Positions 6,783 through 35,195 of a stretch of DNA of 64,000 nucleotides are shown piece by piece (position 1 is the stretch's first letter; each line of letters begins with the position of its first letter). Origin of the DNA: Oscillospiraceae bacterium (GTDB taxonomy: Bacteria > Bacillota > Clostridia > Oscillospirales > Oscillospiraceae); assembly GCA_009783555.1 (NCBI GenBank), contig WRDH01000003.1, positions 1 through 64,000 of the forward strand, in the 5' to 3' direction. The translations under genes were made by a program, and so were the position numbers. A model generated the notes under the pieces. That model was given only the letters and a program-made list of their open reading frames with translations, made no database searches and was not told the origin of the DNA.

Positions 6783-7586
6783 ATGAGAACTGTGGATGAG
6801 CAAAACATAATTTTCTGCGATAGCTTGCTTAGGTTTGTGAAACTTGATGGCAAGAGTATTCTGGATGTTGGTTGTGGAAACGGCGATTTGGTCAGATACA
6901 TTGCGGAAAAGTACTTGCCCGAGTATATTGCCGGAATTGAACCGGCATTAGTTGAGTACTGGGACTCTGACGAGCAAGAGGGAAAAAACTGGTGTGTCAA
7001 ACATGGTAATGCCTATAGTTTGGATTACGACGATAACACATTCGATGTGGTAGCAAGTCTTTCAACTTTTGAACACATCGGTGATATTCCAACAGCTCTG
7101 TCCGAAATAAAGCGCGTTTTGAAACCTTATGGCCGTTTTTATGCGGAGTTTTCACCAATTTGGACATCCGCAGCCGGACATCACTTTCTTCATGGAAAAG
7201 ATCGTAGCTGGAATCCCGAGCATCTTTTGGCAATTCCGGCATGGGGACATTTATACTTATCGGAAAAAGACATGAAGCTCAAGCTTGAGAAATCATTTTT
7301 AGATGAAAAGCTTATATGCAAAATTCTTAATTTTATATACAGTAGCGATTATATCAATCGCTATTCACGTACAATGTTATCGCAAGCTTTAGCTAACTCA
7401 AATATGATAGTCCGATATTATGAAGAAAGAGTATCGTTTAACAGGCTTTGGGCGATAAACGGTGTAGGTGGTTCAGAACTTACAGAAGACATAGTTTCAG
7501 CCATTGCTGAAACAAAGTACAGTGTTTATGATTTGGGGGTCGTTGGATTACGTGTTTGTCTTGAAAAATATGCCGCACTTCCATAA
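6783..7586 (+). CDS. Class I SAM methyltransferase (first of tandem pair)
   Basis: This 267-residue Methyltransf_11-type protein has motif I ILDVGCGNGDLVRYI near residue 22 and the acidic loop IAGIEPA. It also has the post-core FDVVASLSTFEHI...EIKRVLKPYGRFYAEFSP segment. It is a clear paralogue of the next gene: both continue with IWTS, GHHF, and WGHLY in the same places. The pair differ mostly in the N-terminal and C-terminal helices. An AGGA ribosome site lies before the ATG. The substrate is unknown, presumably a sugar unit made by the cluster. Confidence 0.88.
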   Translation: MRTVDEQNIIFCDSLLRFVKLDGKSILDVGCGNGDLVRYIAEKYLPEYIAGIEPALVEYWDSDEQEGKNWCVKHGNAYSLDYDDNTFDVVASLSTFEHIGDIPTALSEIKRVLKPYGRFYAEFSPIWTSAAGHHFLHGKDRSWNPEHLLAIPAWGHLYLSEKDMKLKLEKSFLDEKLICKILNFIYSSDYINRYSRTMLSQALANSNMIVRYYEERVSFNRLWAINGVGGSELTEDIVSAIAETKYSVYDLGVVGLRVCLEKYAALP

Positions 7587-7598
7587 TGGAGAATAATA

Positions 7599-8396
7599 AT
7601 GAGTGATAATGAGCAATTAAAAATGCTTGCTGAGCGAATTGATTCACATATACATCTTGCGGGGAAAAAGGTTCTTGAGATTGGTTGCGGAAACGGAGAT
7701 TTGCTTAAACTCATAGCCGAAAGTTATGATATAGCACATATCACAGGGGTTGATTCATCTCTGTCCGGCTGGTGGGGGATTGGGGAAAGTGTTGGCGCAA
7801 ACTGGTCTGTCTGCGATGGCAACGCAGAACGATTATGTTTTGATGATAACAGTTTCGATGCAGTTATATCCTATGCGGCATTTGAGCATATCGAGAATGT
7901 AAAGCTGGCATTATCTGAGATAAAACGGGTTATGAAGCCATATGGAAGGTTTTATACCGAATTTAGCCCCATTTGGACGTCTATTGTTGGCCATCACTTT
8001 GTAGCAAAAGACGAAACATTATTCAACCCTAGTCACCTGAAGCTCATTCCACCTTGGGGCCATCTATATATGAACGAACTCCAAATGCACGACCATTTAC
8101 ATGAGCAAACTGAAGAGGATGCCTTAATAGATGAAATTTTGTACTTTATTTACCACAGCAGCATAATAAACCGCCTTGGTAGGAATGATTTCCTTGATAT
8201 CATTGTAAATTGCGGAATGATTATAAAAATGTACCAAGAGACGATTGCATTTAACCGGCTTGCCATACTGGGAATGGAGAAAGCTTCTGAGTTAACTGCC
8301 GATATACTTAAAAAAATCGTGTCTGCCGGTTATGATGCCACAGATATTGGTGTACTAAGTATGATGGTTCTTCTTGAAAAATACGAGAGTATATAG
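7599..8396 (+). CDS. Class I SAM methyltransferase (second of tandem pair)
   Basis: The 265-residue protein is a duplicate of its upstream neighbour. It has motif I VLEIGCGNGDLLKLI, ITGVDSS, FDAVISYAAFEHI and EIKRVMKPYGRFYTEFSPIWTS. Two divergent copies side by side suggest methylation of two positions or two related sugars. GGAGAATAAT before the ATG is a good ribosome site. It is followed after 30 bp by the first long GT4 gene. Confidence 0.88.
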   Translation: MSDNEQLKMLAERIDSHIHLAGKKVLEIGCGNGDLLKLIAESYDIAHITGVDSSLSGWWGIGESVGANWSVCDGNAERLCFDDNSFDAVISYAAFEHIENVKLALSEIKRVMKPYGRFYTEFSPIWTSIVGHHFVAKDETLFNPSHLKLIPPWGHLYMNELQMHDHLHEQTEEDALIDEILYFIYHSSIINRLGRNDFLDIIVNCGMIIKMYQETIAFNRLAILGMEKASELTADILKKIVSAGYDATDIGVLSMMVLLEKYESI

Positions 8397-8426
8397 ATTG
8401 TTTAATAGATTGGGGCAGATACAGTA

Positions 8427-10124
8427 ATGCGAAAGAGAATTTTAACTGTTAACTTCTATGATATCCTTCACGTAAATCATGGTGGAGGAAGCTTCTGCGT
8501 TCGCGGACTACAAAGCGCTCTATCGAAATGGTTTGATATTACGTTGGTGTCATATCATGATGAGTATGATATTTATAGCAGTCGGATATGGATTAATAAA
8601 AATCTGTGTGTAGCTTCTATTCCAAAACCCGACACGTTGAGAGATACGGAAAAGAGATTTTACCGGGAGGAAGGGTTTGAAAAGGTTGACATTTTCTTTG
8701 ATCCGTCACTACCTGCAACTCGATATTACGCAGATTTTGTTGAGTTAATGGATCCTATATATGAGATTGCTGCAGATTCGGACATATTGATAACGGAACA
8801 CCCATATACATACAGATTATTGAAACAAGCCGCGCCTGGTAAGTGTATTTGGTATAGGGCTCATAATGTGGAATATGACTACAAAAATAAAGCATGGCAG
8901 CACTGTGAAAGCAAAGAGGCGTTGTTAAACGAGGTTTATGATCTTGAAAAAGAGTGCTGTGACGGATGTGACTTGATACTGACAATAACAGAAAAAGATG
9001 CCGAAAGATTTCATATGCTGTATAATGTACCGAAGTCAAAGCTGTTGAATATTTCAGCCGGTATAGATACATCATTTTTTGTGTTGCCAAGCGAACGAGA
9101 AAAGCTATCAATGGATTATGAGGAAAGTGCATTCTTTATATCGAGTTACGCAGAAGCCTCAGCGGATGCGGCAAGGCGGGTATCGGCACTTGCGATTAAA
9201 ACACCGAACATTATGTATTATATTGCCGGAAGTGTCTGCGGTGCGATAAAGCAGTGTGATGCGCCCGGAAACCTGTGTCTTTTAGGCATGATTTCTGATG
9301 AGCAGAAAATAAAGTATCTGATTCAAGCTGACTTTGCATTAAACTTGATTGATAGCGGCTCCGGGATGAATATCAAGATGCTTGAGTATTTCGCGTATGG
9401 ACTACCAACTATTACTACTGAATTTGGTTTGCGCGGGATATCTGCCAAGGATGGAACTCATTGTATCACTACATGTCTAAAGAATGTCGAGGATACAGTA
9501 AAATCATTTTGTGAGATGGGAGATTCAGCGCGCGACACAGTTGCAAAAAATGCATATGAGCTGGTCAAGAGTGATTATAGCTGGAACGCTTGTGTTGATC
9601 GCATACTTAATCATCTGTCTGAGAGCAATAAGGATTTTTACGAAGCCGTTGTAAACTCAACCTTAAATGACATGGATAAGGACGCTGATGCTGATACATT
9701 AGAATTAAATCTTGACAGATCCCGGAAGTATTTTATCTTTGGAGCCGGGTGGTTTGGTGCTAAGTGTAGAGAAATGTTATCATCACTTGCTATTACTCCT
9801 ATTGGATTCATTGATAATAACTCATCACTGTGGGGGAGTATGGTCAAAAAAATCCCCATTTACCCGCCGAGTGAGTATTTCAAAGCATCTGACGCGAACA
9901 TTATCATAGCGGCAGGCGTTTCTTTCACCGTTGATATATTATGTCAATTAGTTGATAGTGGGATTCCATTAGCCAATATCTTTCTTGCGTTTGATGGTGT
10001 CAATCTGTACTCATGTGGAAAACGTATAGGTTATAATCCAGATTATTACGATGTTGAGAAGTTGTTAAAATTTGGCAGGAAGCGGAGACGTGAAAATGGA
10101 GCGGCAGAAAATCACGGTCATTAA
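8427..10124 (+). CDS. GT4-like glycosyltransferase with C-terminal Rossmann module (copy A)
   Basis: The 565-residue protein opens with a GT-B N-domain (ILTVNFYDILHVNHGGGSFCVRGLQSAL) and contains WYRAHNVEYDY. Its nucleotide-sugar half is marked by GSGMNIKMLEYFAYGLPTITT, the equivalent of the E-x7-E region. After about residue 430 the cluster's Rossmann module is attached (KYFIFGAGWFGAKC, then IGFIDNNSSLWGS and IPIYPPSEYF). The gene overlaps the next one by 29 bp, and the two proteins are clear tandem duplicates. The ribosome site is weak (GGGGCAG). The transferred sugar cannot be told from sequence. Confidence 0.85.
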   Translation: MRKRILTVNFYDILHVNHGGGSFCVRGLQSALSKWFDITLVSYHDEYDIYSSRIWINKNLCVASIPKPDTLRDTEKRFYREEGFEKVDIFFDPSLPATRYYADFVELMDPIYEIAADSDILITEHPYTYRLLKQAAPGKCIWYRAHNVEYDYKNKAWQHCESKEALLNEVYDLEKECCDGCDLILTITEKDAERFHMLYNVPKSKLLNISAGIDTSFFVLPSEREKLSMDYEESAFFISSYAEASADAARRVSALAIKTPNIMYYIAGSVCGAIKQCDAPGNLCLLGMISDEQKIKYLIQADFALNLIDSGSGMNIKMLEYFAYGLPTITTEFGLRGISAKDGTHCITTCLKNVEDTVKSFCEMGDSARDTVAKNAYELVKSDYSWNACVDRILNHLSESNKDFYEAVVNSTLNDMDKDADADTLELNLDRSRKYFIFGAGWFGAKCREMLSSLAITPIGFIDNNSSLWGSMVKKIPIYPPSEYFKASDANIIIAAGVSFTVDILCQLVDSGIPLANIFLAFDGVNLYSCGKRIGYNPDYYDVEKLLKFGRKRRRENGAAENHGH

Positions 10125-22672: not shown

Positions 22673-25201
22673 TCAAGACAAAATCGTTTTCTTTATGTAT
22701 TCATATATCTTCTTGCCGGCGGTTCCGTCGGGGTTGGAGGAAAGTGAGCGTGCGACTTCCTTGCGGCGGTCACGTTGCGACTTTTCTTCGTCGTTATCTT
22801 TTTCTATGTATACTAAAAACCCATTTAATCGATAATAGTCACTCTCGTAGTAACAATAATCTTGAACAGTTTTTATTTTCTTAATATCTTTTATGAATCT
22901 CCCTGATAACATATTTTCTAGTTGAACCGATATTTCAGGGTTATAATTAACAATTTCTTCTTTTCGAGATTCAGTTATGAAATCATACTTTATTAGCGTC
23001 CCTGTGTAATAAATAAAAGCATATATACTGTCACCATAATTCTGCGCTGATATGAACTTAAAGAGTGCATGACCGTTTTTGCTGTCTGCAGGACCGGACG
23101 CAAATTCGCTTGCTATTGAAACGGAGTCTGTAGCTGTATTAATTATTACTGCATGCTCACCGAACATCGGGAGAAGCCATATATATCCTCCATAAAAGAA
23201 CATAGGATAAAATGCATGGTCTTTACCGTCAACATATATATCCGCGAAATACGTAGTTTCTCCTGTATCGGGATTCCACTTAACGACCGGTGCTTTTGTT
23301 TCCCAATGTGGGGATAGCCAAAAATGTATACCGTCAAAGTAAGAACCGCAGTAGCGATAGTCTTTTTCACCAACCTCATGAAAAGCATATTCATATGTTT
23401 CCATATCAAATTCCATGATGATATTTGCTTCAAGTACCGGTAGCCACACTGAACAGTTAATAGTAAACGGGTAGCCTAAATAGAAGCCTTTTACATCACC
23501 CATCAACTTTGTGAGCGATTCAATCCAATCGGTATGGCAGGTTATTTCCATAGTCTTGATGTTCAGTTGAATTATCGCCGGATACTCATATGGAATGAAG
23601 AATATAAAGTCCCCGGAAACAACCGCAGCCAGAAAGTCTCCGGTTTCTTTCCGGTAGTCCTTGGCTTCTTTGTACTTGATTTTTCCGAATGTCCCTGTTT
23701 GTGTAGAGTACATAACAATTTCATTTGCCAAAAATGGCGGGAAATAGAGAATGCCGTCAACTTCTACCGGTTTTCTATAAAGAGAGTCATCAGGTTCTTT
23801 TATATAGTCACTCTCATCAGGAAAGCTACCTGCGAACTCCGGAATCCAAGTGTTCCTATCCATGCTTATCAGGGCGTTGAAACGACGGATAGTGAACCAG
23901 AAGTTGTTTTTTGTTATGCAGATATCGGTTGGTTCAAATGGAGGTATGGTTTCCGTTATCTTTGGATCGTTAATCATTATCGGCTTTCCTGTAGCTTGAT
24001 ACAATATAACCAATGAGCTTGGATCGCCATAATATGCATCTGTCCAGGATATAGCCCGATGCAGTTCCGGTGTATCATCATATATGCCGTAGTCTGTCTG
24101 CTTGTATACCTCTACAATACGATTATACTGTCCGGCAAGCTCGGGGTTCATTGTGTCGTATGCGCTTTCGCTGAGCGGGTGTGGACGCCACCATAGTACC
24201 ACATCATTTCTGTCGCGGAAAGCATCTAGAACATACTGCAGTTTCTTTAAGTATTGCTCTTTGTAGTTTACAATTGGTGTTACACTTGTGTTCAATAGAA
24301 TTACTTTTTTATTTTTGTTGAGCTTCGCCCATGATTTCGGAAGTGAAAAATCTTCTCTTTTTGCATTAATGACCGCATCGAATTTTGGTGAACCGAGAGC
24401 TATGATTTTATCCTCGGGAGCACCGTAGATATCCCTGCTGTATCCGATTTTTTCAAGCTCTTTATAATCACGGATGTAACACTGCCGGACTGCTTCCGAT
24501 TGAACAATAACGAGGTGTGAGAACATAACTCCGGGGCATTTGGTGAATGGTGCTCCTATGTTCTCTGATGTGACAAAGTACGGTACATAGACCAGCATCT
24601 CCGTGAGTTCACGCAAACGCCTGCAGTAGAAATCGGGATGAACGCTTGTCATGTGGCCGAGCTCATCATAAGGGGCGAATGTGACTATCACATCCGGGTG
24701 TCTTTCTTCGATATTGTATATTCGCCAATCGGTGCATTCTATACTGTCTTTATAGTATTCTGCTCCTTCGTAGTGCATAGCACCGAGTGTTCCATCCTGA
24801 TTACACTCGTAATACGGGATAGGTATCCAATAAACATCACAGCTCGGGTCAGCCTTCGCCGCTGTATAAATCGACTCGATGCTGTCGCTCATACTGGCTT
24901 TATAACTGAGAAATACCATTTCGTAACGGGTTTGCTTAAATTCGTTTTTGACACTGTTCTCTATTCGTAAAAACCCTTTGTCAAGTGCCTTTTTACCGAC
25001 CTCACCAATGCTTGCTTTATAAAGCAGTTCGCAGTAATCATCGAGCAAGGCAACCGTTTGTGTACCCTTACCCTCAAGCTCCTCAATGAACTCACCAATG
25101 GCAATAGCACCATCCTGACAGTCGGCGTAAAGCTCCGTTTCCTGCAAACTCTTTAACGTTCCCAGCAGCTCTAGTATTTGTTTTTGTTGGTGTTTACGCA
25201 T
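22673..25201 (-). CDS. Glycerophosphotransferase-like protein with propeller-like tail (copy 1)
   Basis: This 842-residue protein starts with a helical N-terminus (MRKHQQKQILELLGTLKSL). A CDP-glycerol glycerophosphotransferase-like (TagB/TagF, GT-B fold) domain follows over about residues 90-430, with KIIALGSPKFDAV, DVVLWWRPHPL and DAYYGDPSSLVILYQATGKPIMI. The C-terminal half holds six repeats of about 45 residues, each with an aromatic-rich strand (YFPPFLANEIVMY, FIFFIPYEYPAIIQL, VWLPVLEANIIMEF, FWLSPHWETKAPVVKW, IWLLPMFGEHAVII, IYAFIYYTGTLIKY). These look like a beta-propeller. It is probably a wall- or glycan-decorating transferase. It is second in an operon, 27 bp after its paralogue. Confidence 0.78.
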   Translation of the reverse strand: MRKHQQKQILELLGTLKSLQETELYADCQDGAIAIGEFIEELEGKGTQTVALLDDYCELLYKASIGEVGKKALDKGFLRIENSVKNEFKQTRYEMVFLSYKASMSDSIESIYTAAKADPSCDVYWIPIPYYECNQDGTLGAMHYEGAEYYKDSIECTDWRIYNIEERHPDVIVTFAPYDELGHMTSVHPDFYCRRLRELTEMLVYVPYFVTSENIGAPFTKCPGVMFSHLVIVQSEAVRQCYIRDYKELEKIGYSRDIYGAPEDKIIALGSPKFDAVINAKREDFSLPKSWAKLNKNKKVILLNTSVTPIVNYKEQYLKKLQYVLDAFRDRNDVVLWWRPHPLSESAYDTMNPELAGQYNRIVEVYKQTDYGIYDDTPELHRAISWTDAYYGDPSSLVILYQATGKPIMINDPKITETIPPFEPTDICITKNNFWFTIRRFNALISMDRNTWIPEFAGSFPDESDYIKEPDDSLYRKPVEVDGILYFPPFLANEIVMYSTQTGTFGKIKYKEAKDYRKETGDFLAAVVSGDFIFFIPYEYPAIIQLNIKTMEITCHTDWIESLTKLMGDVKGFYLGYPFTINCSVWLPVLEANIIMEFDMETYEYAFHEVGEKDYRYCGSYFDGIHFWLSPHWETKAPVVKWNPDTGETTYFADIYVDGKDHAFYPMFFYGGYIWLLPMFGEHAVIINTATDSVSIASEFASGPADSKNGHALFKFISAQNYGDSIYAFIYYTGTLIKYDFITESRKEEIVNYNPEISVQLENMLSGRFIKDIKKIKTVQDYCYYESDYYRLNGFLVYIEKDNDEEKSQRDRRKEVARSLSSNPDGTAGKKIYEYIKKTILS

Positions 25202-25228
25202 AAGCTATTATCCCTATAATTCATAGTA

Positions 25229-27769
25229 TTAAGATAAAGCCGGTACTTTTTTCTTTACATAATCATATATCACTTTGCCGCTAGTACCATTTGTGTTAAC
25301 AGAAAGATGCTCAGTTCGATTATTTACTAAAGTTTGCTTCTTTGACTCATTTTCGTTGCTGGTATTTACAATATAAGATAGAAAGCTGCTTAGCAGCATG
25401 CCATCACATTCCTTAAAATAACAATCAATTTCTAAAGTTCCATTTTCTTCTGCTGCTGTAAATGCTTCTGAATATAACTTCTCCAATATAGAAAAAATCT
25501 CAGAGGAATAATAAACCGTTTCTTCTCTATGTTTATTTGTAATGCAATTATATTCTATTAATGTACTTCTATTATTACTATATATGTAAATAGAATCAGA
25601 AAAAGTATCAACCGCTAGGTATTCACTGCTTTGATATTGATTATCGTCGACGGAGAAACTTAACTCCTTTACAACATAAGCATCATCTGTTCGAAAATCT
25701 ATTTTATATGTATCACCATCAAATATAGGTATAAACCAAATATAGTCTCCACAATGCTTTTCCGCAAGAAAACCCTTAGTATTATTCTCAGAATAAATAT
25801 CACCGAACTCGTTTTTAACACCTTTAATCGGATGCCATTTTGTTATCGGCATGTTATTACCAAAAAGCGGAGATAACCAAAAATTGGCACCATCAAATGA
25901 GATGCTTATGTATCTAAAGTGTTTCTCTCCAACCTCATAAATACTGCATTTGTTTTCTTTGATATCATATTGGAGTACAGCATTACTTTCCAGTGACGGT
26001 GCCCAAATCGAACTGTCAACAAGACACGCACGATAAAAATGTGTTTGAGGGTTTCCGGTTATATTGTTTAGAGGCTCAAGCCAGTCAACGATATACGACA
26101 TTTCCATTGATTCGGTACATAGGCGTAAAATCCCGGGATAACCGTGTGGAATAAAATAAATATTACTACCATATAAAATAGCATCAGAGAAGTCATTTTT
26201 GTTTTTTTGAGTTTTCTCTCTATTATAGCGCACCTTACTAAATTTCTCGCTATGTAAATCAAAAACTGCAATTTCATTAGCACTAAAAGGTGGAAAGTAG
26301 AGTTTGTTATTATACTCCACCGGTGTTAAGTATAACGAGTAGTCACTTGCAGGAATATATGCGACCTCTCCGGGTACACTTCCTGCAAGCTTTAATACAC
26401 AATCATCTTTAGCCATATAAAATAGTGCATTAATATACCTAACAGTGAACCAAATTTTATCTTTATTTACGTAGATACTTGTCGGTTCAAACTTAGGTAT
26501 ACTGTGCATTATTTCAGGATTACTAATCATAATCGGTTTCCCGGTTACCTGATACAAAATAACCACTGAACTGTTGTCGCCATAATACGCATCGCTAAAA
26601 GCAATCGCACGATGCAAATCCGGGGTATCATCATATATGCCCCATCCGCCGTTTTTATACTCTTCGACTTTTTTATCATATGTATCTATCAGCTCAGGAT
26701 ACGCTTTTGCAAACGCTGTTCTTCCAAGGGGATGCGGCCGCCACCATAGGACAACGTCGTCGCGTTTGCTGAACTCATCGAGAATAAAAATGAGTTTTTT
26801 CAGGTATTGACTTCCGTTATTAAATGAAGCGTTTATGCTTGTGATAAAAAGGATTACTTTTTTCTTCGTGCCATCCGGCTTCTCAATCAGGTTTTTCCAT
26901 TTATCAGGCAAAGCAAAATCGCTCGGCTTGGCATTGATTACAGCGTCAAACTTTGGCGAGCCGAGAGCAACGATTTTCTTTTTGGGAGCACCGAGAGCAT
27001 TCTGATCATATCCGATTTCCTCAAGAGCCAAACAGTCGCGGATAAAGTCTTGTCTGACACTCTCCGATTGAACAACCACAAGATGAGAATACACAACTCC
27101 CGCGCATTTAGTATAAGGCTCACGCACGGTTCCCGATGTTACGTAATACGGAACATAGACCAGCATATCTGTAAGATTTCGTAGTCGTACACAGTAAAAG
27201 TCAGGATGTATTCTTGTTACATAGCTATCATCATCATACGGAGAAAACGTGAAAATTACATCGGGATGACGTTCTTCGATATCATACTCCCGCCAATCCG
27301 TGCATTCGATGCTTGATTTATAGTTTTCCTGCCCCTCATAACGCATTGCGCCTAAGGAGCCGTCCGGGTTGAGTTCATAGTAGGGGATAGGTATCCAGTA
27401 CACGTCACAGTTCGGGTCTTCTTTTGCGGTAAAATAAATCGACTCCAGACAATCACTCATGCTCGCGTTATAACTCAGAAAAACCATTTCAATACGGTTT
27501 GGCTTAAGTTCGCTTCTGACACTGTTTTCTATTCTTGTCAGTTGCTTGTTTAGTGCTTTTGTGACGTTTTCCCCAATGCTTGCTTGGTATAATAAGTCGC
27601 AGTATTCCTCGAGCAACTCAACCGTTTGAGTACCTTCACCCTCAAGCTCTTCAATAAACTCGCCAATGCTGATTGCACCCTCCTGACAATCAGCGTAAAG
27701 CCCTGCTCCCTGCAAACTCTTTAGTGTTTCCAGCAGCTCAAGTATTTGCTTTTGTTGATGCTTTCGCAT
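25229..27769 (-). CDS. Glycerophosphotransferase-like protein with propeller-like tail (copy 2)
   Basis: I choose the ATG at 27,769 (MRKHQQKQ), which aligns with the paralogue and has GGAG seven bases upstream; an in-frame start ten codons earlier lies on the leader. The 846-residue protein matches copy 1 from end to end, most strongly in the transferase half (KIVALGSPKFDAVINAK, DVVLWWRPHPLGRTAF, DAYYGDNSSVVILYQVTGKPIMI). The propeller-like repeats are more diverged. A third, ruined copy lies at 29,459-29,620. The promoter at 27,800-27,828 probably drives both genes. Confidence 0.8.
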   Translation of the reverse strand: MRKHQQKQILELLETLKSLQGAGLYADCQEGAISIGEFIEELEGEGTQTVELLEEYCDLLYQASIGENVTKALNKQLTRIENSVRSELKPNRIEMVFLSYNASMSDCLESIYFTAKEDPNCDVYWIPIPYYELNPDGSLGAMRYEGQENYKSSIECTDWREYDIEERHPDVIFTFSPYDDDSYVTRIHPDFYCVRLRNLTDMLVYVPYYVTSGTVREPYTKCAGVVYSHLVVVQSESVRQDFIRDCLALEEIGYDQNALGAPKKKIVALGSPKFDAVINAKPSDFALPDKWKNLIEKPDGTKKKVILFITSINASFNNGSQYLKKLIFILDEFSKRDDVVLWWRPHPLGRTAFAKAYPELIDTYDKKVEEYKNGGWGIYDDTPDLHRAIAFSDAYYGDNSSVVILYQVTGKPIMISNPEIMHSIPKFEPTSIYVNKDKIWFTVRYINALFYMAKDDCVLKLAGSVPGEVAYIPASDYSLYLTPVEYNNKLYFPPFSANEIAVFDLHSEKFSKVRYNREKTQKNKNDFSDAILYGSNIYFIPHGYPGILRLCTESMEMSYIVDWLEPLNNITGNPQTHFYRACLVDSSIWAPSLESNAVLQYDIKENKCSIYEVGEKHFRYISISFDGANFWLSPLFGNNMPITKWHPIKGVKNEFGDIYSENNTKGFLAEKHCGDYIWFIPIFDGDTYKIDFRTDDAYVVKELSFSVDDNQYQSSEYLAVDTFSDSIYIYSNNRSTLIEYNCITNKHREETVYYSSEIFSILEKLYSEAFTAAEENGTLEIDCYFKECDGMLLSSFLSYIVNTSNENESKKQTLVNNRTEHLSVNTNGTSGKVIYDYVKKKVPALS

Positions 27770-27799
27770 AAGTATTCTCCACGTGTGATTCTTTGCCAA

Positions 27800-27828
27800 A
27801 TTATATTATATTGAGCAAGCAAATACAA
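27800..27828 (-). promoter_or_regulatory. Promoter of the tandem transferase genes
   Basis: On the minus strand, TTGTAT (27,823-27,828) and TATAAT (27,800-27,805) are 17 bp apart, about 30 nt before the ATG at 27,769. The same region, with TTGAAT and TATAAT at 29,651-29,679, precedes the truncated third copy. Confidence 0.7.
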
Positions 27829-27892
27829 CCTGTACTTCAGACTCAAGACGTGTGTTTTTCAATAACGAAACTGTTATAGTAGGTCTGTCCGA

Positions 27893-29305
27893 TTACTCGA
27901 ATAAGTCATCCAGTGTAACCTCAGAATGTACAACTCCGAAGTATCCGCTTTTTGTGACGCCGTACGTCGTTATCATGGTTAGATGAACCCCATGTTGAAT
28001 CCCGGTTTCCATCTGAAAAGAAATACGCTTGTTGTTCAGCATTTCCGAGTAGGATTTCGTGATCACAAAGGGTTGATTCACATATTTGATTTCACACAGA
28101 TTTGTAATGCGATCCTTGCGGCGTATCACTAAGTCAATTTCTGCACCGGGTTTCGCGGTCTTACTGCGCCATGATGATGTTTCTGTTGACACCCCTGAGA
28201 TGCCGAGTGCCTTTTTGATTTGTCTGAGATGTAAACGGCATAGTTGTTCAAAAGCGTAACCACGCCACGCATTGCGCGTACCATCGTTAATGTTACCTGT
28301 CCAGTAATATTCATCTTTTGTGTCGTTGTCTTTCATATAGCGTAGATAAAACATTGTAAATGGGTCAATAAGGAAGAAATATCTTCCCTTTTTTCCTTTG
28401 GATGTATCGCTGTATGTGTCTATGAAATCACATTGTTCAAGATCGTCCAATACTATAGAAAGATGACCGTTCGATTGGAGTCCGGCAATTTCGATAATAT
28501 CATTTCTGCATAGCCCGCTGTTTTTTGTCGCAAGAGCTTCAACCACAGCTATATAGCGGGTCGGGTTGCTAAACAGCGACATATATAGCTCATAGAACTC
28601 GTTTTTAAGCGATGCGTTTTTCGCAAAACAAAGCCTATCCACATTTTGCGAGAGCGATAAGCCTCTATCAAGTAGGTTCAGATAGTATGGGATTCCGCCG
28701 AATATCATATAGCATTCTGCTAACTGATAGCGATCCATCTCTACACCCCGATTTTTAAGGAATACCTCGCACTCGCCAATTGTAAAAGGCGCCAGATGAA
28801 TTCTACCGGTAACCCGGTTGTGCAAGCCTCCTCGGTTTTTGAATATTTTTTTTGTTATCCACGAAGTAGCACTTCCGCATCCGATAAAGAGTATATCCTT
28901 GTTAGCTGAAGCGAAGCTGTTCCAAAAGTAGTCGAAAGCAAGTAAAAATCCTGATTTCCCGGTATCCAGCCACGGCATTTCATCAATGAATACTACTTTT
29001 CTCTCACCCGGTGATTTCCGGAGAAGCCTCTCAAGCTTATGAAACGCGTCTGCCCAACTCATAGATTTCGGACTCTTGTCACCACCATATTCGATAATCG
29101 CATTGTCAAAATCATCGAGATTGCCTTTCCGTGAAGAGCTAACCTTTCCGGTAAAGTAAAAAGAGAAACCTCCCTCGAAATGCTCTTTTATAAGAAATGT
29201 TTTGCCAATGCGACGTCGACCATACACTATGATCAGTTCCGGTCTTCCTGAATAATAGTAGTCATCAAGTTGCCGCCGTTCTTCTTTCCTGCCTATAATT
29301 GCCAT
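27893..29305 (-). CDS. Archaeal-type AAA ATPase with DUF234-like nuclease tail
   Basis: The 470-residue protein starts MAIIGRKEERRQLDDYY, the usual opening of the archaeal ATPase/DUF234 family. I choose ATG 29,305; a second ATG four codons upstream is possible, and a farther TTG (29,338) lies inside an operator palindrome. Walker A is GRRRIGKT (29-36), and Walker B is KVVFIDEMPW. The C-terminal domain has the PD-(D/E)XK-like pattern EIDLVIRRKDRITNLCEIKY (D...E-x-K). The role of this family is unproven. The gene sits exactly between the intact transferase pair and the remnant of a third copy, so it probably arrived as a module. Confidence 0.85.
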   Translation of the reverse strand: MAIIGRKEERRQLDDYYYSGRPELIIVYGRRRIGKTFLIKEHFEGGFSFYFTGKVSSSRKGNLDDFDNAIIEYGGDKSPKSMSWADAFHKLERLLRKSPGERKVVFIDEMPWLDTGKSGFLLAFDYFWNSFASANKDILFIGCGSATSWITKKIFKNRGGLHNRVTGRIHLAPFTIGECEVFLKNRGVEMDRYQLAECYMIFGGIPYYLNLLDRGLSLSQNVDRLCFAKNASLKNEFYELYMSLFSNPTRYIAVVEALATKNSGLCRNDIIEIAGLQSNGHLSIVLDDLEQCDFIDTYSDTSKGKKGRYFFLIDPFTMFYLRYMKDNDTKDEYYWTGNINDGTRNAWRGYAFEQLCRLHLRQIKKALGISGVSTETSSWRSKTAKPGAEIDLVIRRKDRITNLCEIKYVNQPFVITKSYSEMLNNKRISFQMETGIQHGVHLTMITTYGVTKSGYFGVVHSEVTLDDLFE

Positions 29306-29332
29306 ATCGACCCCCATATCATGTGGATATTC

Positions 29333-29367
29333 GGCCAAATGCTGGTTTATGATACACTGTTTTGGCC
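29333..29367. promoter_or_regulatory. Operator-like palindrome O2 (35 bp)
   Basis: GGCCAAAT (29,333-29,340) faces TTTTGGCC (29,360-29,367) across a 19-bp spacer. The arms, orientation and spacing are the same as in O1 (29,420-29,454), although the spacers differ. It lies in the 5' leader of the ATPase gene. Confidence 0.65.
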
Positions 29368-29412
29368 TACTATTTATGCACTTTTCGTCTCTCTACAGCG
29401 AATAACAGTATT

Positions 29413-29454
29413 ATAATACGGCCAAATGTGGGTGTTGTCAACCCACTTTTGGCC
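29413..29454 (-). promoter_or_regulatory. Consensus promoter overlapped by palindrome O1
   Basis: On the minus strand, TTGACA (29,436-29,441) and TATTAT (29,413-29,418) are exactly 17 bp apart and point at the ATPase gene. A 35-bp palindrome (29,420-29,454) covers the -35 and spacer. Its 14-bp arms, GGCCAAATGTGGGT and ACCCACTTTTGGCC, differ at one position. A protein bound here would block RNA polymerase. Confidence 0.8.
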
Positions 29455-29458
29455 TAAT

Positions 29459-29620
29459 ATCTTTTTTGGGAACACCGAGAGCATTCCGATTATATCCGAT
29501 TTCCTCGAACTCGCCAATACCGATTGCCCCCTCCTGACAATCCGCATAAAGCTCCGCATCTTGTGCAGTTTTAAGTGTTTTAAGCACTTCAATTATCTCT
29601 CGTTGCTGCCGCTTTCTCAT
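29459..29620 (-). pseudogene. Third transferase copy, internally deleted
   Basis: The frame starts MRKRQQREIIEVLKTL and follows the N-terminus of the two big transferases up to IGIGEF. It then jumps to EEIGYNRNALGVPKK, which matches a point about 220 residues further on in the intact proteins. Similarity ends at about 29,459, against the ATPase promoter region. The intact paralogues contain E-E at both sides of the jump, so a deletion through short homology is likely. Its promoter-like region (29,651-29,679) is preserved. Confidence 0.8.
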
Positions 29621-29909: not shown

Positions 29910-29990
29910 ATGAAGCGCAGAGAATTAGTATGGAAGAGGATGGTACAAAATGAATTACATTTATCCGGCAATATTCAGTTCAAACGATGA
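29910..29990 (+). pseudogene. Possible hicA remnant
   Basis: ATG 29,910, behind GGAGAGG, opens MKRRELVWKRM, which resembles the conserved start of HicA toxins (MKxxELIKxL). The frame then runs out of phase through the HicB start and stops after 26 codons. The toxin body, including its histidine motif, is absent. The position, immediately after the promoter and before hicB, is where hicA belongs. Confidence 0.4.
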
Positions 29991-30321
29991 TGGGAGTTAC
30001 ACAATCACCTATCCTGATTTGAAAGGATGTATTAGCGAGGGGAAAGACTTAGAAAATGCAATGGTAATGGCACAATCTGCACTATCGCAATGGTTAGAAT
30101 ATCTGGATTCAGATAAACAGGAATTTCCAAAGCCATCAGAAATAATCGAAATAACAGTTGAAGGAAACGAGTTTACAAGCTTAATACGTGCCGATATAAG
30201 AGACAGCAGAGCGGTCAAACGCACAGTAAGCTTACCAAAATGGATGGACGAAAAAGTCTCAGAAATGGGGTTAAGCCTATCACGTGTACTGCAAGACGCA
30301 CTTGCTAAGAAAATGAGCTAA
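29950..30321 (+). CDS. Orphan HicB-like antitoxin
   Basis: The 123-residue HicB-type protein has an N-terminal domain NYIYPAIFSSNDDGSYTITYPDLKGCISEGKDLENAMVMAQSAL. Its C-terminal ribbon-helix-helix segment reads RAVKRTVSLPKWMDEKVSEMGLSLSRVLQDAL. No complete hicA accompanies it; only a few toxin-like codons remain upstream at 29,910. With its own promoter and repeats, it is probably still expressed and may act as a stand-alone DNA-binding repressor or anti-addiction protein. Confidence 0.88.
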   Translation: MNYIYPAIFSSNDDGSYTITYPDLKGCISEGKDLENAMVMAQSALSQWLEYLDSDKQEFPKPSEIIEITVEGNEFTSLIRADIRDSRAVKRTVSLPKWMDEKVSEMGLSLSRVLQDALAKKMS

Positions 30322-30568: not shown

Positions 30569-31822
30569 CTATATCATCCATGCAGGGACAAACCAGTTAT
30601 TAATATCTGCCGGCAATAAATCGTTGGCCATGCAAACAACTGCACCGTTGCCGATTTCAACTTTGTATTGTTCTAACTCGCCTAATAGTGTCGGCACGGT
30701 AACCGGGTTAAGGACTTTGAAATGTTTTACAGCATCCTTACCCGGAGATGCGGATTTCTTAATTTCAATTGGGTATAGCGTACCATTTTCATATATGAGA
30801 ATGTCGATTTCACGTTTTTCTTTATCGCGGTAATAGTAAACCGGAACTTCCCTCCCGGCGTTTAAATAGCTTTTGTAAATTTCCGAAAATACCCAGCTTT
30901 CAAAGAACGCTCCCGACATTGCACCTCTCTCTAAGATTTCAGGATTACCCCATTTCAACAAGTAAGCACAAAGCCCGGTGTCCAGAAAATGCATAAGCGG
31001 CATTTTCACTGCGCGTTTAAGAACATTATTGTGGTATGGCTGCACCAAGGCGATAAGCCCGGAGGAAACTAAAATTGAAATCCATTTTTTTGCCGTTGGT
31101 GCGCTAATTCCGGCATCTTTCGCTATTTCCTCATATATTACAGGTCTGGCGGTACGCGCCGCCACAATGGTCATAAAACTATAGAACGCTGTCTCATCGG
31201 CAACCTGAGTTAAATCCTTGATATCCCGTTGTAAATAGGTGTTGATATAGGAACGGTAGAATTCTGATAACTCCGGAGGATTTTCACGGTGCAAAGCAGG
31301 AAATGCACCAAGGAAAATTCTTTCGTAAAGCGTGTGTAAATCCAGTTTTCGGACATTTTTCACACGAGACATCAATCGTTCGGGAGATGTGGTAAATGGC
31401 TCGGAAGGTTGGGAGTTGATTTCGTTTGTTGACAACCCTAACAGGTTTATGATACCTACTCGCCCCGCAAGCGATTCGCTGACATTCTTCATCATGTGGA
31501 ATGCTTGAGATCCTGTAAGCCAAAAATCACCCATATTCCCGGAATTATCAACGCTCATTTTTATATAAGGCAGGATTTGGGGTGCGTATTGGATTTCATC
31601 AATTAATATAGGAGGAGTGTAGCGATGCATGAACAACGCCGGGTCATTTCGTGCTGTATTGCGAACATCCGGGTCGTCAAGCGTTACATAGTTGCGAGTT
31701 TTGTCTGAAAGATGCTTTAACAGTGTTGTTTTTCCGACTTGTCTAGGTCCCGACATTAGTAAAACGGGAAAAGTTTTTGATACTTTCACTACAGAATCTT
31801 CGATTGCACGTTTGATATACAT
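30569..31822 (-). CDS. AAA_14/DUF4143 ATPase
   Basis: The 417-residue protein has Walker A GPRQVGKTT (25-33), Walker B ILIDEIQ (72-78), a DFWLTGSQAFHMM sensor segment and the SLAGRVGIINL turn typical of DUF4143 proteins. A winged-helix-like middle follows (YEEIAKDAGISAPTAKKWISILVSSGLI). The tail keeps the PD-(D/E)XK-like residues in REIDILIYENGTLYPIEIKK. It belongs to the best-known DUF4143 subfamily. GGAGGG lies close before the ATG, and the promoter with an inverted repeat is at 31,842-31,892. It is an isolated single-gene unit. Confidence 0.9.
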   Translation of the reverse strand: MYIKRAIEDSVVKVSKTFPVLLMSGPRQVGKTTLLKHLSDKTRNYVTLDDPDVRNTARNDPALFMHRYTPPILIDEIQYAPQILPYIKMSVDNSGNMGDFWLTGSQAFHMMKNVSESLAGRVGIINLLGLSTNEINSQPSEPFTTSPERLMSRVKNVRKLDLHTLYERIFLGAFPALHRENPPELSEFYRSYINTYLQRDIKDLTQVADETAFYSFMTIVAARTARPVIYEEIAKDAGISAPTAKKWISILVSSGLIALVQPYHNNVLKRAVKMPLMHFLDTGLCAYLLKWGNPEILERGAMSGAFFESWVFSEIYKSYLNAGREVPVYYYRDKEKREIDILIYENGTLYPIEIKKSASPGKDAVKHFKVLNPVTVPTLLGELEQYKVEIGNGAVVCMANDLLPADINNWFVPAWMI

Positions 31823-31841
31823 AACAAACCCTCCACTTGCT

Positions 31842-31892
31842 GACTAAACTAAAATGCAAACTTAGTATAGTCGGGTATGTTGTTTTTGTCAA
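31842..31892 (-). promoter_or_regulatory. Consensus promoter with operator-like inverted repeat
   Basis: On the minus strand, TTGACA (31,887-31,892) and TATACT (31,864-31,869) are 17 bp apart. The inverted repeat GACTAAACTAA (31,842-31,852) / TTAGTATAGTC (31,862-31,872), 10 of 11 bases matching with a 9-bp centre, covers the -10 box and start site. It drives the ATPase gene starting at 31,822. Confidence 0.8.
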
Positions 31893-32017
31893 CTCATTAA
31901 TCATTGACCGCTCCACCTGCCCTCTAAAAAGTAAACATAGAAGCAATTGCAAGAGGCATACCCCAACAGTTCATTCACTGTTATACATAGAGATAACGTC
32001 GTGGACTTTCTACATTT

Positions 32018-32341
32018 TTGAATGCTATAGTGTCCTCCGGTGAGAATATTGCCGAGGCACTTATAATGGCAAAAGACGCTATTGAAATGTGGTTGTGGGA
32101 TGCTGAAAACAAAAATGAGGATATTCCTGAAGCAACATCATCCGGGAAAATAAAGTTGGAAGAAAATCAACAAGTAACATTAGTTGCGGCAGACACAGAC
32201 GAGTGGAGACGCTTATACGATACAAAATCAGTTAAGAAAACATTGTCTATACCGTCATGGCTTAATACCAGAGCGGAAAAAGCCAATGCGCCGTTTTCCC
32301 AAATACTGCAAGAAGGGCTAAAGGAATACTTGAAAGTATAA
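32018..32341 (+). pseudogene. HicB-like gene, 5'-truncated
   Basis: The frame begins NAIVSSGENIAEALIMAKDAIEMWL, matching HicB from its middle (compare GCISEGKDLENAMVMAQSAL in the intact copy). It then keeps the whole ribbon-helix-helix end (SVKKTLSIPSWLNTRAEKANAPFSQILQEGLKEYL). The first about 25 residues (YPAIF...FPDLPGC) and any ribosome site are missing. The DNA-binding half could still fold if translated, but expression is doubtful. Confidence 0.75.
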
Positions 32342-32348
32342 GTGCTCA

Positions 32349-32437
32349 GAAGACAAGGGGACGGTTCATCTGTCCTCTTTATATTGTCTTACGCAGTTGC
32401 AGCCGGCTTCTTTTGCGGCGTACAGGGCTTTGTCGGA
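32349..32437 (-). repeat. Copy of the GGDEF gene 3' end
   Basis: About 89 bp closely match 35,306-35,394, the last codons and downstream flank of the minus-strand REC-GGDEF gene, with some seven differences. The matching DNA includes GACGGTTCATCTGTCCTC, TATTGTCTTACGCAGTTGC and GCTTTGTCGG. The copy is a displaced gene end with no body. Confidence 0.85.
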
Positions 32438-32472
32438 AAAAATGAAACAATATTCACAAATAAGAAAAAAGA

Positions 32473-32501
32473 TTGACAAATCGCATGTTAATGCATATAA
32501 T
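32473..32501 (+). promoter_or_regulatory. Perfect consensus sigma-A promoter
   Basis: TTGACA (32,473-32,478) and TATAAT (32,496-32,501) are separated by exactly 17 bp. Transcription from about 32,508 rules out the in-frame ATGs upstream and fixes the ATPase start at 32,539. A small inverted repeat, GCAT-GTTA-ATGC, lies in the spacer. Confidence 0.85.
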
Positions 32502-32538
32502 TGAAAAGAATGACGATTGCAGCAAAGAGGGTGTCTAT

Positions 32539-33789
32539 ATGGTCCTGCGAAAAATATACTTGGAACGATTAAAAAAATGGCGAGAGAAGCAACTGATTAA
32601 AGTAATCAGCGGTGTACGCCGTTGTGGAAAGTCGACACTGCTTGCACAATACATCGATTACTTGTTGTCCGAAGGTATAGGAAATGAGCAAATCGTATCG
32701 GTCAATCTTGAGGATGTTGAGTATGAGCATCTCTTAAACTACAAAGCGTTGTATGACTATATAAAAGAACGGCTCTGTAAGGATAGATATACTTATGTAT
32801 TTATAGATGAAATACAACAATGTAGTAGTTTTGAAAAAGCTGTAGACAGCCTGTTCATAAAAGACAAAGTCGATGTGTATATTACCGGTTCAAATGCATA
32901 TCTGCTCTCAGGCGAACTTGCAACGCTTTTATCGGGTAGATACATAGAAATCAACATGTTGCCGTTATCGTTTTTAGAGCATATGGATTTTTTAAATTGG
33001 GAGGATTCTTTCCTTCCGGCATATCTTCCCATGCCGCTTGGTCCGAATCTTAGAGCGGAGTTTGATATTTACTTACGTTATGGTTCCTTCCCATATGTGA
33101 GTCAGCTTGAAAGAGACGATGCAGTCATTAAAACATATATTGACGGCATCTACTCGACAATACTTATTAAAGATGTAGCAATGCGTGAGGGTATATCCGA
33201 TATATCCGTCCTTGAGGGTGTGGTGAAATTTCTTTGCAATAATATAGGAAGTCCGGTTTCAATAAAAAAAGTCAGTGATACCATCAACTCAAGCGGTCGC
33301 AATATCTCAGTTAACACGGTCGAAAAATATGTTAGAGCACTCACAGACAGCTTCATTTTCTACAAAGCCGACAGATTTGATATAAAAGGGCGGCAGCACT
33401 TGAAAACCCTAGGTAAATACTATCTTGTGGATACCGGTCTTAGAAATATGCTGTTATCCGGTTCGTCACCGGATCTTGGACATCAGTTGGAGAATATCGT
33501 ATATTTAGAGCTTTTACGCCGGGGAAATAGAGTTAATATAGGAAAGCTTGCAGAAAAAGAAGTGGATTTTGTTTCAAATAATGTTGACGGTATTTGTTAT
33601 TACCAGGTAGCGGCAACTGTGATGGATGAAAACACACTTGACAGGGAGTTGGCACCTCTGCGAAAGATACCGGATCACCACCCTAAATATTTACTGACAC
33701 TGGATGATATAATTACGAATGCCAATCACGACGGTATCCGCCAAATAAATGTTTTGAACTGGCTGCTTTTTAATAATGATGCAGGGTGA
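32539..33789 (+). CDS. AAA_14/DUF4143 ATPase lacking the nuclease lysine
   Basis: The start is ATG 32,539 (MVLRKIYLERLKKWREKQLIKVISGVRRCGKSTLL), placed downstream of the promoter. The 416-residue protein has Walker A GVRRCGKS (25-32) and Walker B YVFIDEIQQC. The sensor YITGSNAYLLSGELATLLSGRYIEI and the DUF4143 region FYKADRFDIKGRQHLKTLGKYYLVDTGLRN follow. In the nuclease-like tail the acidic part is kept (KEVDFV) but the E-x-K position reads YYQVAA, so cleavage is unlikely. This QVA form is usual in this subfamily. Confidence 0.9.
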   Translation: MVLRKIYLERLKKWREKQLIKVISGVRRCGKSTLLAQYIDYLLSEGIGNEQIVSVNLEDVEYEHLLNYKALYDYIKERLCKDRYTYVFIDEIQQCSSFEKAVDSLFIKDKVDVYITGSNAYLLSGELATLLSGRYIEINMLPLSFLEHMDFLNWEDSFLPAYLPMPLGPNLRAEFDIYLRYGSFPYVSQLERDDAVIKTYIDGIYSTILIKDVAMREGISDISVLEGVVKFLCNNIGSPVSIKKVSDTINSSGRNISVNTVEKYVRALTDSFIFYKADRFDIKGRQHLKTLGKYYLVDTGLRNMLLSGSSPDLGHQLENIVYLELLRRGNRVNIGKLAEKEVDFVSNNVDGICYYQVAATVMDENTLDRELAPLRKIPDHHPKYLLTLDDIITNANHDGIRQINVLNWLLFNNDAG

Positions 33790-33798
33790 GGATTGACT

Positions 33799-33861
33799 CT
33801 CTATTTTGTTAGCTCAATACCCTCTATTATGTTGACAATATGCCCTCTATTATGTTACACT
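33799..33861 (+). promoter_or_regulatory. Promoter with three 23-bp-spaced direct repeats
   Basis: The 12-mer CTCTATT(T/A)TGTT starts at 33,799, 33,822 and 33,845, exactly 23 bp apart each time. TTGACA (33,832-33,837) and TACACT (33,856-33,861), spacer 18, form the promoter of the next ATPase gene. The last two repeats flank and touch the promoter boxes. Confidence 0.75.
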
Positions 33862-33902
33862 CTGTATTGTTGGTCATTAACACTGATGAACGGAGACAAG
33901 AT

Positions 33903-35195
33903 ATGACACTGCGTAACAGTAACTACAAAGATCGTCTTCTGGATGGGCTGCTTGAAAAGCATCTTCGAGCTTTTGGCGCGATTGAAATCGTAGGGAGCAT
34001 GTGGTCCGGAAAAACATGGATGGCGGAAGCCCACGCTGTGAGCAAAATAAATTTATCAACCAAGGGAATCAGAACGCTCATTGAAGCAGATCCAAGCCTG
34101 GCTTTTGACGGCGGTAGACCTCATTTGATAGATGAATGGCAAGAGATTCCATCGTTGTGGGATGAAACACGTCTGGCAGTCGACACTGCTGCCGGCGAGC
34201 GCGGCATGTTTATTCTGACAGGTTCATCAACGCCAAATAAAGAAGAAACCATTCATAGCGGAACGGGACGTATATCTCGCATACACCTCAGACCTATGAG
34301 CCTTTATGAAACCGGAGATTCTGACGGTTCGGTATCGCTTAGCGGATTGTTTGATGGCAACTTTAACAATGCACGAGTAAAAACAGACCTACGCAACATT
34401 GCTGATCTGATATGTAAAGGTGGATGGCCGGGGGCTTTGTACCTAAAGTCGGTCGATGCAAAGTTAATTCCAAACCAGTATCTTGATACATTTTTATCTT
34501 CAATAGGAAGCAAGAGCGGAGCAAATGAATATAAACTGAGGCGTTTTCTGTCATCTTTGGCAAGGAATATCGGACAGGCGGTGACCTATCAGACGATTGC
34601 GAGCGATATCGTTGAAGGAAACATTGATAATAAAAACGAATTTGCATCAAGACAGCAAATAGAAGCGTTTATTACTGCATTCAAGGAGCGATTCATTATT
34701 GAGGATTTATCCGGGTGGGATGCTCCTATACGCGCAAAATCGCGGGTACGGTTGAAACCAAAACGCAGTTTTGTCGACCCTTCGCTGACGGCGGCACTAC
34801 TTGGTGCGGATAAAGACCGTTTGCTTCAGGATGGCCAATTGTTTGGTAAGTTGTTTGAGGAATTATGTATAAGGGATTTGAAGATATATGCTTCCTGTAT
34901 GGACACAGCGTTGCCGGATTCAGTCAAATACTACAGGGATTCCGACAATCTCGAAGTCGATGCTATTGTTGAGCTCAGAGATGGGCGATGGGCCGGAATC
35001 GAAATAAAGTTGAGCGAGAATAAAGTGATGGAAGGGGTCAACAACCTTCTACGGCTTAAAACCAAGATAGCATTAAACCCAATGGCGCGAAATCCTGAAC
35101 CTGCATTCCTGGCGGTGATGGTCGGCAAGGCAGAGTTTTGCAGAAGGACGCCTGAGGGTATATATGTGATTCCATGCACATCATTAACAGCATGA
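33903..35195 (+). CDS. AAA_14/DUF4143 ATPase with PD-(D/E)XK-like tail
   Basis: The start is ATG 33,903 after CGGAGA; codons upstream in frame overlap the promoter. The 430-residue protein has a variant Walker A GSMWSGKT (31-38), Walker B HLIDEWQEIP and MFILTGSSTP. The RPMSLYETGDSDGSVSL segment is shared with the protein at 728. The tail keeps KYYRDSDNLEVDAIVELRDGRWAGIEIKL, so the D...E-x-K nuclease-like residues are present. It is the closest relative of the first ATPase in the window, although the two lie 33 kb apart. Confidence 0.87.
   Translation: MTLRNSNYKDRLLDGLLEKHLRAFGAIEIVGSMWSGKTWMAEAHAVSKINLSTKGIRTLIEADPSLAFDGGRPHLIDEWQEIPSLWDETRLAVDTAAGERGMFILTGSSTPNKEETIHSGTGRISRIHLRPMSLYETGDSDGSVSLSGLFDGNFNNARVKTDLRNIADLICKGGWPGALYLKSVDAKLIPNQYLDTFLSSIGSKSGANEYKLRRFLSSLARNIGQAVTYQTIASDIVEGNIDNKNEFASRQQIEAFITAFKERFIIEDLSGWDAPIRAKSRVRLKPKRSFVDPSLTAALLGADKDRLLQDGQLFGKLFEELCIRDLKIYASCMDTALPDSVKYYRDSDNLEVDAIVELRDGRWAGIEIKLSENKVMEGVNNLLRLKTKIALNPMARNPEPAFLAVMVGKAEFCRRTPEGIYVIPCTSLTA

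Follow-up and report, generated by a model that had tools for sequence, protein, structure and literature searches.

The locus described here lies within a 64,000-nt stretch of DNA (the window, meaning the whole stretch analysed) and is centred on a minus-strand gene at 27893..29305, with its ATG at 29305, which encodes a 470-residue protein of the PDC-S27 / ATPase_2-DUF234 type composed of a P-loop ATPase, a winged helix and a PD-(D/E)XK nuclease domain. This protein matches the PADLOC-DB model PDLC04984 (PDC-S27) over its full length (residues 2-469, E 4.9e-190), and no match was obtained in NCBIfam. The features of STAND-type P-loop ATPases, i.e., Walker A, Walker B and a GxP motif, are present. 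The Walker A motif reads GRRRIGKT (residues 29-36; 29198..29221, minus strand), and in all 188 members of the subfamily that were compared G29, G34, K35, D108, E109, G203 and G204 are invariant, with P206 found in 185/188. Structure matches of the protein include 2FNA, 2QEN, MalT, NLR proteins and Orc1/Cdc6 (2QBY). The C-terminal superstructure-forming sensor repeats of the STAND class are absent, the C-terminal part being the PD-(D/E)XK domain, and the protein is not assigned to the classic STAND sensors. In this domain (residues 342-469; 27899..28282, minus strand), the E...D...ExK signature is conserved almost without exception (E353 188/188, D391 187/188, E405 187/188, K407 188/188). The winged-helix DNA-binding domain (residues 248-312; 28370..28564, minus strand) consists of a helix-turn-helix with a wing and is modelled by AlphaFold2 with a mean pLDDT of 89. 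Its recognition helix (residues 280-291; 28433..28468, minus strand) is predicted from this model and from the covariation described below; it is immediately preceded by the specificity residues 278-279 (codons 28469-28474, minus strand) and followed by the wing (residues 295-312 in the model), whose turn (residues 300-307; 28385..28408, minus strand) includes K306. The same genome encodes five paralogues that are close (44-70% identity) and four that are distant; the paralogue on contig 19 is intact, not frameshifted.

An earlier note on this DNA had described two operator copies of identical geometry before this gene, the first in its leader and the second covering a -35 box, and all of this was confirmed. 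The pattern GGCCAAAW-N19-WTTTGGCC has exactly two matches in the window, 29333-29367 and 29420-29454 (0.00 expected by chance; 0/100 dinucleotide shuffles with a match). These are GGCCAAAT-N19-TTTTGGCC dyads lying 87 bp apart over and below the promoter of the ATPase gene; within each copy the half-sites start 27 bp apart, and the 19-bp centres are unlike each other. The predicted proximal operator, read on the minus strand as GGCCAAAA-N19-ATTTGGCC (29333..29367), is located in the leader, between the promoter and the ATG, with its dyad centre 45 bp before the start codon. The predicted distal operator (29420..29454, minus strand) has the same arms and a different centre, and encloses the -35 box. 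A sigma-70-type promoter with 11/12 consensus matches is predicted at 29413..29441 (minus strand; start site unmapped), where TTGACA (29441-29436) is separated by a 17-bp spacer from a TATTAT -10 box. One of the two dyads is extended by an additional inverted repeat.

Three PDC-S01-type ATPases (AAA_14/DUF4143; 30569-35195) adjoin the PDC-S27 gene, with four solitary candidate-defence ATPases lying together. Interspersed with them are two ORFs (29950-30321 and 32018-32341), one a HicB-like antitoxin gene by Pfam match and the other judged HicB-like by eye, with no HicA recognised near them. No operator pair was found upstream of the three PDC-S01 genes, of either HicB-like gene or of the window's glycosyltransferase-like gene. 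Tandem copies of a large glycerophosphotransferase-like gene, together with a 60-residue remnant (29438-29620), span 22673-29620; the remnant has lost an internal segment, and its sequence stops at the beginning of the distal operator.

Paired dyads across the subfamily

The paired sites, their privacy and their phasing emerge from sequence comparison. Members were gathered from relatives, one genome collection, one viral-contig collection and 23 further genomes, giving 188 non-redundant proteins of the same subfamily from several phyla (profile scores of at least 498, vs at most 181 for 33 distant ATPases). A promoter was taken to pass the pair test when it had two dyads with shared arms inside 300 bp, with 200 dinucleotide shuffles as the reference. 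This was the case for 112/186 testable subfamily promoters vs 0/33 distant ATPase_2 promoters; three of the 112 (L047, L180 and L202) look spurious or off-register and were excluded from later steps. In control windows taken elsewhere in the same loci only 2/399 passed, and both were operator copies just 3' of the stop codon. Promoters failing the pair test still carry single dyads of the family framework in 42/78 cases (1.9 expected), so that a pair or a single dyad precedes 152/188 genes; in the other 36/188 no site was found by either the pair test or the single-dyad test.

The arms themselves are specific to each gene. The earlier note had proposed a search for its motif in the genome and its relatives; in its own genome the relaxed form was indeed found only at two ATPase promoters, but GGCCAAA is not conserved before most orthologues. 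Instead, the arms are particular to each gene within a common framework: in half-sites aligned on the dyad axis, the position 14 bp from it is C in 79-87% and the position 10 bp from it is A in 83-86%, most remaining positions varying between loci. Literal matches to the motif in three other genomes fall inside or beside unrelated genes and were taken as chance. Arm mismatches average 0.64 of 7 positions within a locus vs 4.19 of 7 between loci, and in multi-copy genomes the arms of all copies are distinct (12/12 in G131, 10/10 in G141, 9/9 in G136). In the window genome, every close paralogue is preceded by paired inverted repeats with arms such as CGCCAAAA, TATTGCTCGCTG and GGCTGTAACT, among others; 4/5 arms are distinct, the shared ones belonging to two paralogues that are 70% identical. 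One pair, at L011, is degenerate and failed the pair test. Pattern searches of this 2.75-Mb genome returned only four instances of GGCCAA-N19..27-TTGGCC, two in the window and two before the 70%-identical paralogue, and two of CGCCAAA-N17..24-TTTGGCG, each of which precedes the C4 paralogue; the genome showed no wider regulon for either specificity.

The distance between paired dyads is also constrained. Centre-to-centre spacings cluster at 53, 63, 73, 83-87, 96, 107, 120, 131, 142 and 163 bp, with a best period of 11.05 bp (R 0.75, 0/1000 jittered nulls) and a fitted slope of 11.0 bp. The 53-bp class (about 60 loci, mostly from Bacteroidota) dominates these data, and the loci spaced above 57 bp are phased independently. 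A period close to 11 bp is an indication of DNA looping between the dyads. With regard to promoters, the best candidate of a Bacillota locus is mostly located between its two dyads; Bacteroidota-like loci have a TAnnTTTG box after the centre of the proximal dyad in 67/89 cases (4.7 expected). Two features of an autoregulatory looping repressor, sites over the gene's own promoter and whole-turn spacing, are present here.

Other repeats have been observed in the same material. For example, the flanks (upstream or downstream) of L009, L012, L024 and L048 contain a G+C-rich palindromic repeat that is dispersed in the genus of the window, its core resembling GGGGACGGTTCT. In L014, a 26%-identical ATPase is preceded at -196 by a perfect inverted repeat, ATATTAGGCTA-N21-TAGCCTAATAT, and closer to its start by a second one that differs from the first. 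It may be that distant ATPases carry single sites of a different type.

Covariation of arms with protein residues

A residue-base code was likewise revealed by comparison: for each pair of loci, the similarity of the half-sites was set against that of the proteins in each 9-residue segment, with overall identity taken into account. In a blind scan of all 470 residues the covariation peaked at residues 277-285 (partial r 0.20, a modest value; family-wise 1 of 2000), and permutation within clades never matched it (0/1000). This peak coincides with the start of the recognition helix (280-291) in the AlphaFold2 model (pLDDT 89), and site specificity follows the recognition helix, as expected of a winged-helix DNA-binding protein. 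The strongest couplings join residues 278 and 279 to base 13, and residue 306, in the wing, to bases 11 and 9. Among 74 representatives with less than 60% identity, D278 is associated with G13 (14/19), N278 with T13 (11/15) and S278 with C13 (12/15), and K306 is associated with A11 (30/36) and R306 with T11 (19/25). The code is present separately in a termite-gut Bacillota set, where D278 is weaker, and in the remainder. In held-out genes, base 13 was predicted correctly in 48/74 cases and base 11 in 55/82 (0/5000 label shuffles). The window protein obeys the same rules in the register that places C at 14: the proximal dyad has C14, and its C13 and A11 are those predicted from S278 and K306. 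Some residues outside the winged helix also covary with the half-site (T374, I436). A second, weaker peak has been noted at residues 373-381 of P0001, in the nuclease domain, with T374 coupled to base 12; the nuclease domain may also touch the operator.

Because the sequence of the sites tracks the DNA-reading residues of the encoded protein, it is almost certain that each protein binds at its own gene and controls it, and the joint covariation of arms, helix and wing leaves little room for a binder other than the ATPase itself. The earlier note had suggested a dimeric or tetrameric autoregulator, perhaps with looping; this idea is well supported by the pairs of dyads at promoters across the subfamily, by their phasing of about 11 bp and by arms that covary with the recognition helix and wing of the protein encoded beside them, and it appears to be right over a wider range than was proposed. 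In our judgement, the dyads are private operators of the ATPase gene downstream, to which the encoded protein would bind for self-repression by looping, with a probability of roughly 87%.

Sites beyond the stop codon and alternative readings

The sites are more than operators, as the same dyads recur within 270 bp past the stop codon in 16/63 loci with enough 3' sequence, vs about 1% of other 300-bp blocks. Where two 3' dyads exist their spacing is that of the upstream pair, and in L166 (flanked on both sides, as is L104) the repetition takes the form of a direct repeat of 64 bp without mismatch. In related strains, sites also occur as orphans, the gene being absent, at the syntenic place. For example, a single site is left in G134 at a position where a gene with sites on both flanks is present in G136, and GTCCACGAAA dyads are kept in both G130 and G134 where G136 has the gene; in G134 the operator and promoter stand directly before the next gene, the ATPase gene lying in between in G136. 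At the place of a missing PDC-S27 gene in G130 (L276, G130:C1), a PDC-S01-like gene, recognised by eye, occupies 7553-8935 beside an orphan operator pair. From the 3' repeats and from the orphan sites in strains lacking the gene, operator and gene seem to behave as a cassette, a behaviour compatible both with protein-driven and with ordinary repeat recombination.

These data are the main support for another explanation, in which a small mobile cassette has the dyads primarily as its ends or as recombination sites, the ATPase-nuclease recognises these flanking sites of its own to move or copy itself, and promoter control is a by-product comparable to that at transposon ends. In its favour, the similarity of some near-identical copies begins at the outer edge of the operator and stops at the stop codon or the 3' operator (others have more flank in common), the PD-(D/E)XK residues are invariant, and the family has representatives on some plasmids and phages. 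On the other hand, the window gene and most loci have no 3' copy of the dyads, neither target-site duplication nor constant end was seen at the loci examined, and deletion by repeat recombination or plain loss of unselected flanks would look alike. Since the phasing of the dyads and their position over promoters point to regulation, mobility as their primary purpose is considered unlikely. Nevertheless, autoregulation alone leaves two facts unexplained, namely an intact nuclease in a repressor and the sites past the stop codon. A more speculative reading, which we would not favour on present evidence, is that of self-targeting cassettes, where the ATPase-nuclease would recognise private dyads at both ends of its gene and use them for self-silencing together with excision, copying or defence of the own locus. 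If true, cassettes of equal specificity would exclude one another, and this exclusion would be what makes the recognition code diversify, as in phage immunity groups.

The remaining explanations have been rejected on the basis of spacing, covariation, genome-wide site counts and promoter position. Regulator genes and their targets can be separate, and binding by the ATPase is here a prediction, so another transcription factor of the cell might be imagined at these sites; this is very improbable, as the arms vary from locus to locus within one genome, the sites stand at the tested ATPase genes only, and the arms track the ATPase's own recognition helix and wing residues. Still less credible are hairpins of the leader RNA (an attenuator or terminator): the proximal dyad does lie in the transcribed leader, and the additional inverted repeat lengthening one window dyad would suit a hairpin, but the distal dyad is upstream of, or contains, the -35 box, the spacing period is that of the DNA helix, and the arms covary with a DNA-binding helix. 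Finally, dispersed palindromic repeats of the REP or MITE type, placed here by chance, can be practically discarded: such repeats are common between bacterial genes and the same genus has another G+C-rich family, but the four genome-wide copies of the relaxed GGCCAA pattern all lie at two ATPase promoters, centres are unrelated and arms differ per paralogue.

Proposed mechanism and related systems

For the preferred reading, that of private operators of a self-repressing gene, we infer the following scheme, in which repression rather than activation is proposed. A dimer would read both half-sites of one dyad, the recognition helix contacting the G+C-rich part and the wing the A/T-rich inner edge, and two dimers would join across dyads spaced by whole helical turns. 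With the promoter within or between the dyads, direct cover and looping would keep transcription low. A trigger would then free a protein that keeps itself scarce; by analogy with other STAND ATPases, this could be an exchange of nucleotide or oligomerisation. As each paralogue has its own operator-reading residues, 10 to 29 copies in one genome could remain free of cross-talk. The invariant ATPase and nuclease residues suggest that the protein is probably an active effector; its most likely function is that of a self-repressing ATPase-nuclease held low until a trigger arrives, and involvement in defence, or in competition among elements, would fit.

PDC-S27, an ATPase domain fused to a PD-(D/E)XK domain (PMC12988326), ranks with the commonest candidate defence families made up of a single gene, with thousands of copies in archaea and rumen bacteria (PMC12988326, PMC13356809), and validation has been stated to be pending for most such candidates (PMC12988326). 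The passages of these two papers that deal with PDC-S27 concern abundance and domain make-up, and in them no operator, DNA specificity or autoregulation is described. A literature search, with most subscription journals outside its reach, returned no paper on PDC-S27 operators and no PDC-S27 mechanism, and nothing on operators was found for DUF234, COG1672, SSO1545 or PF01637. The present comparison supplies likely DNA targets and a residue-to-base code for an uncharacterised and very common candidate phage-defence family. It also offers a large natural collection of mutually orthogonal self-regulators whose specificity can be read off, useful for studying the evolution of DNA recognition. Abundance alone is a poor ground for calling these genes defence genes, because self-recognition and cassette behaviour also fit a selfish element.

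Several known systems resemble parts of this scheme. The best structural matches are the archaeal STAND ATPases SSO1545 (2FNA, E 5e-11) and PAB2304 (2QEN, E 1e-13), which share the P-loop and the conserved GGIP motif but are only 16-18% identical and have solved chains of about 350 residues, vs 470 with the nuclease domain in the window protein; we know of no operators for either. Archaeal Orc1/Cdc6 initiators (2QBY) have a similar P-loop ATPase and winged-helix fold and bind DNA repeats, but they are devoid of a nuclease domain and act at replication origins, not at promoter operators. In ATPases of the 2QEN/2FNA type, as in Orc1/Cdc6, MalT and NLR proteins, assembly is governed by the nucleotide state. 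In toxin-antitoxin systems and in the controller genes of restriction-modification systems, self-control through palindromic operators limits a potentially harmful activity; PDC-S27 differs in that the DNA-binding and effector domains would reside in one protein, no partner gene having been identified. Finally, GalR and LacI are looping repressors with two operators around the promoter, and the likeness extends to paired dyads spaced by whole helical turns; here, however, the predicted binder is an ATPase-nuclease, and the operators are private to each copy of the gene.
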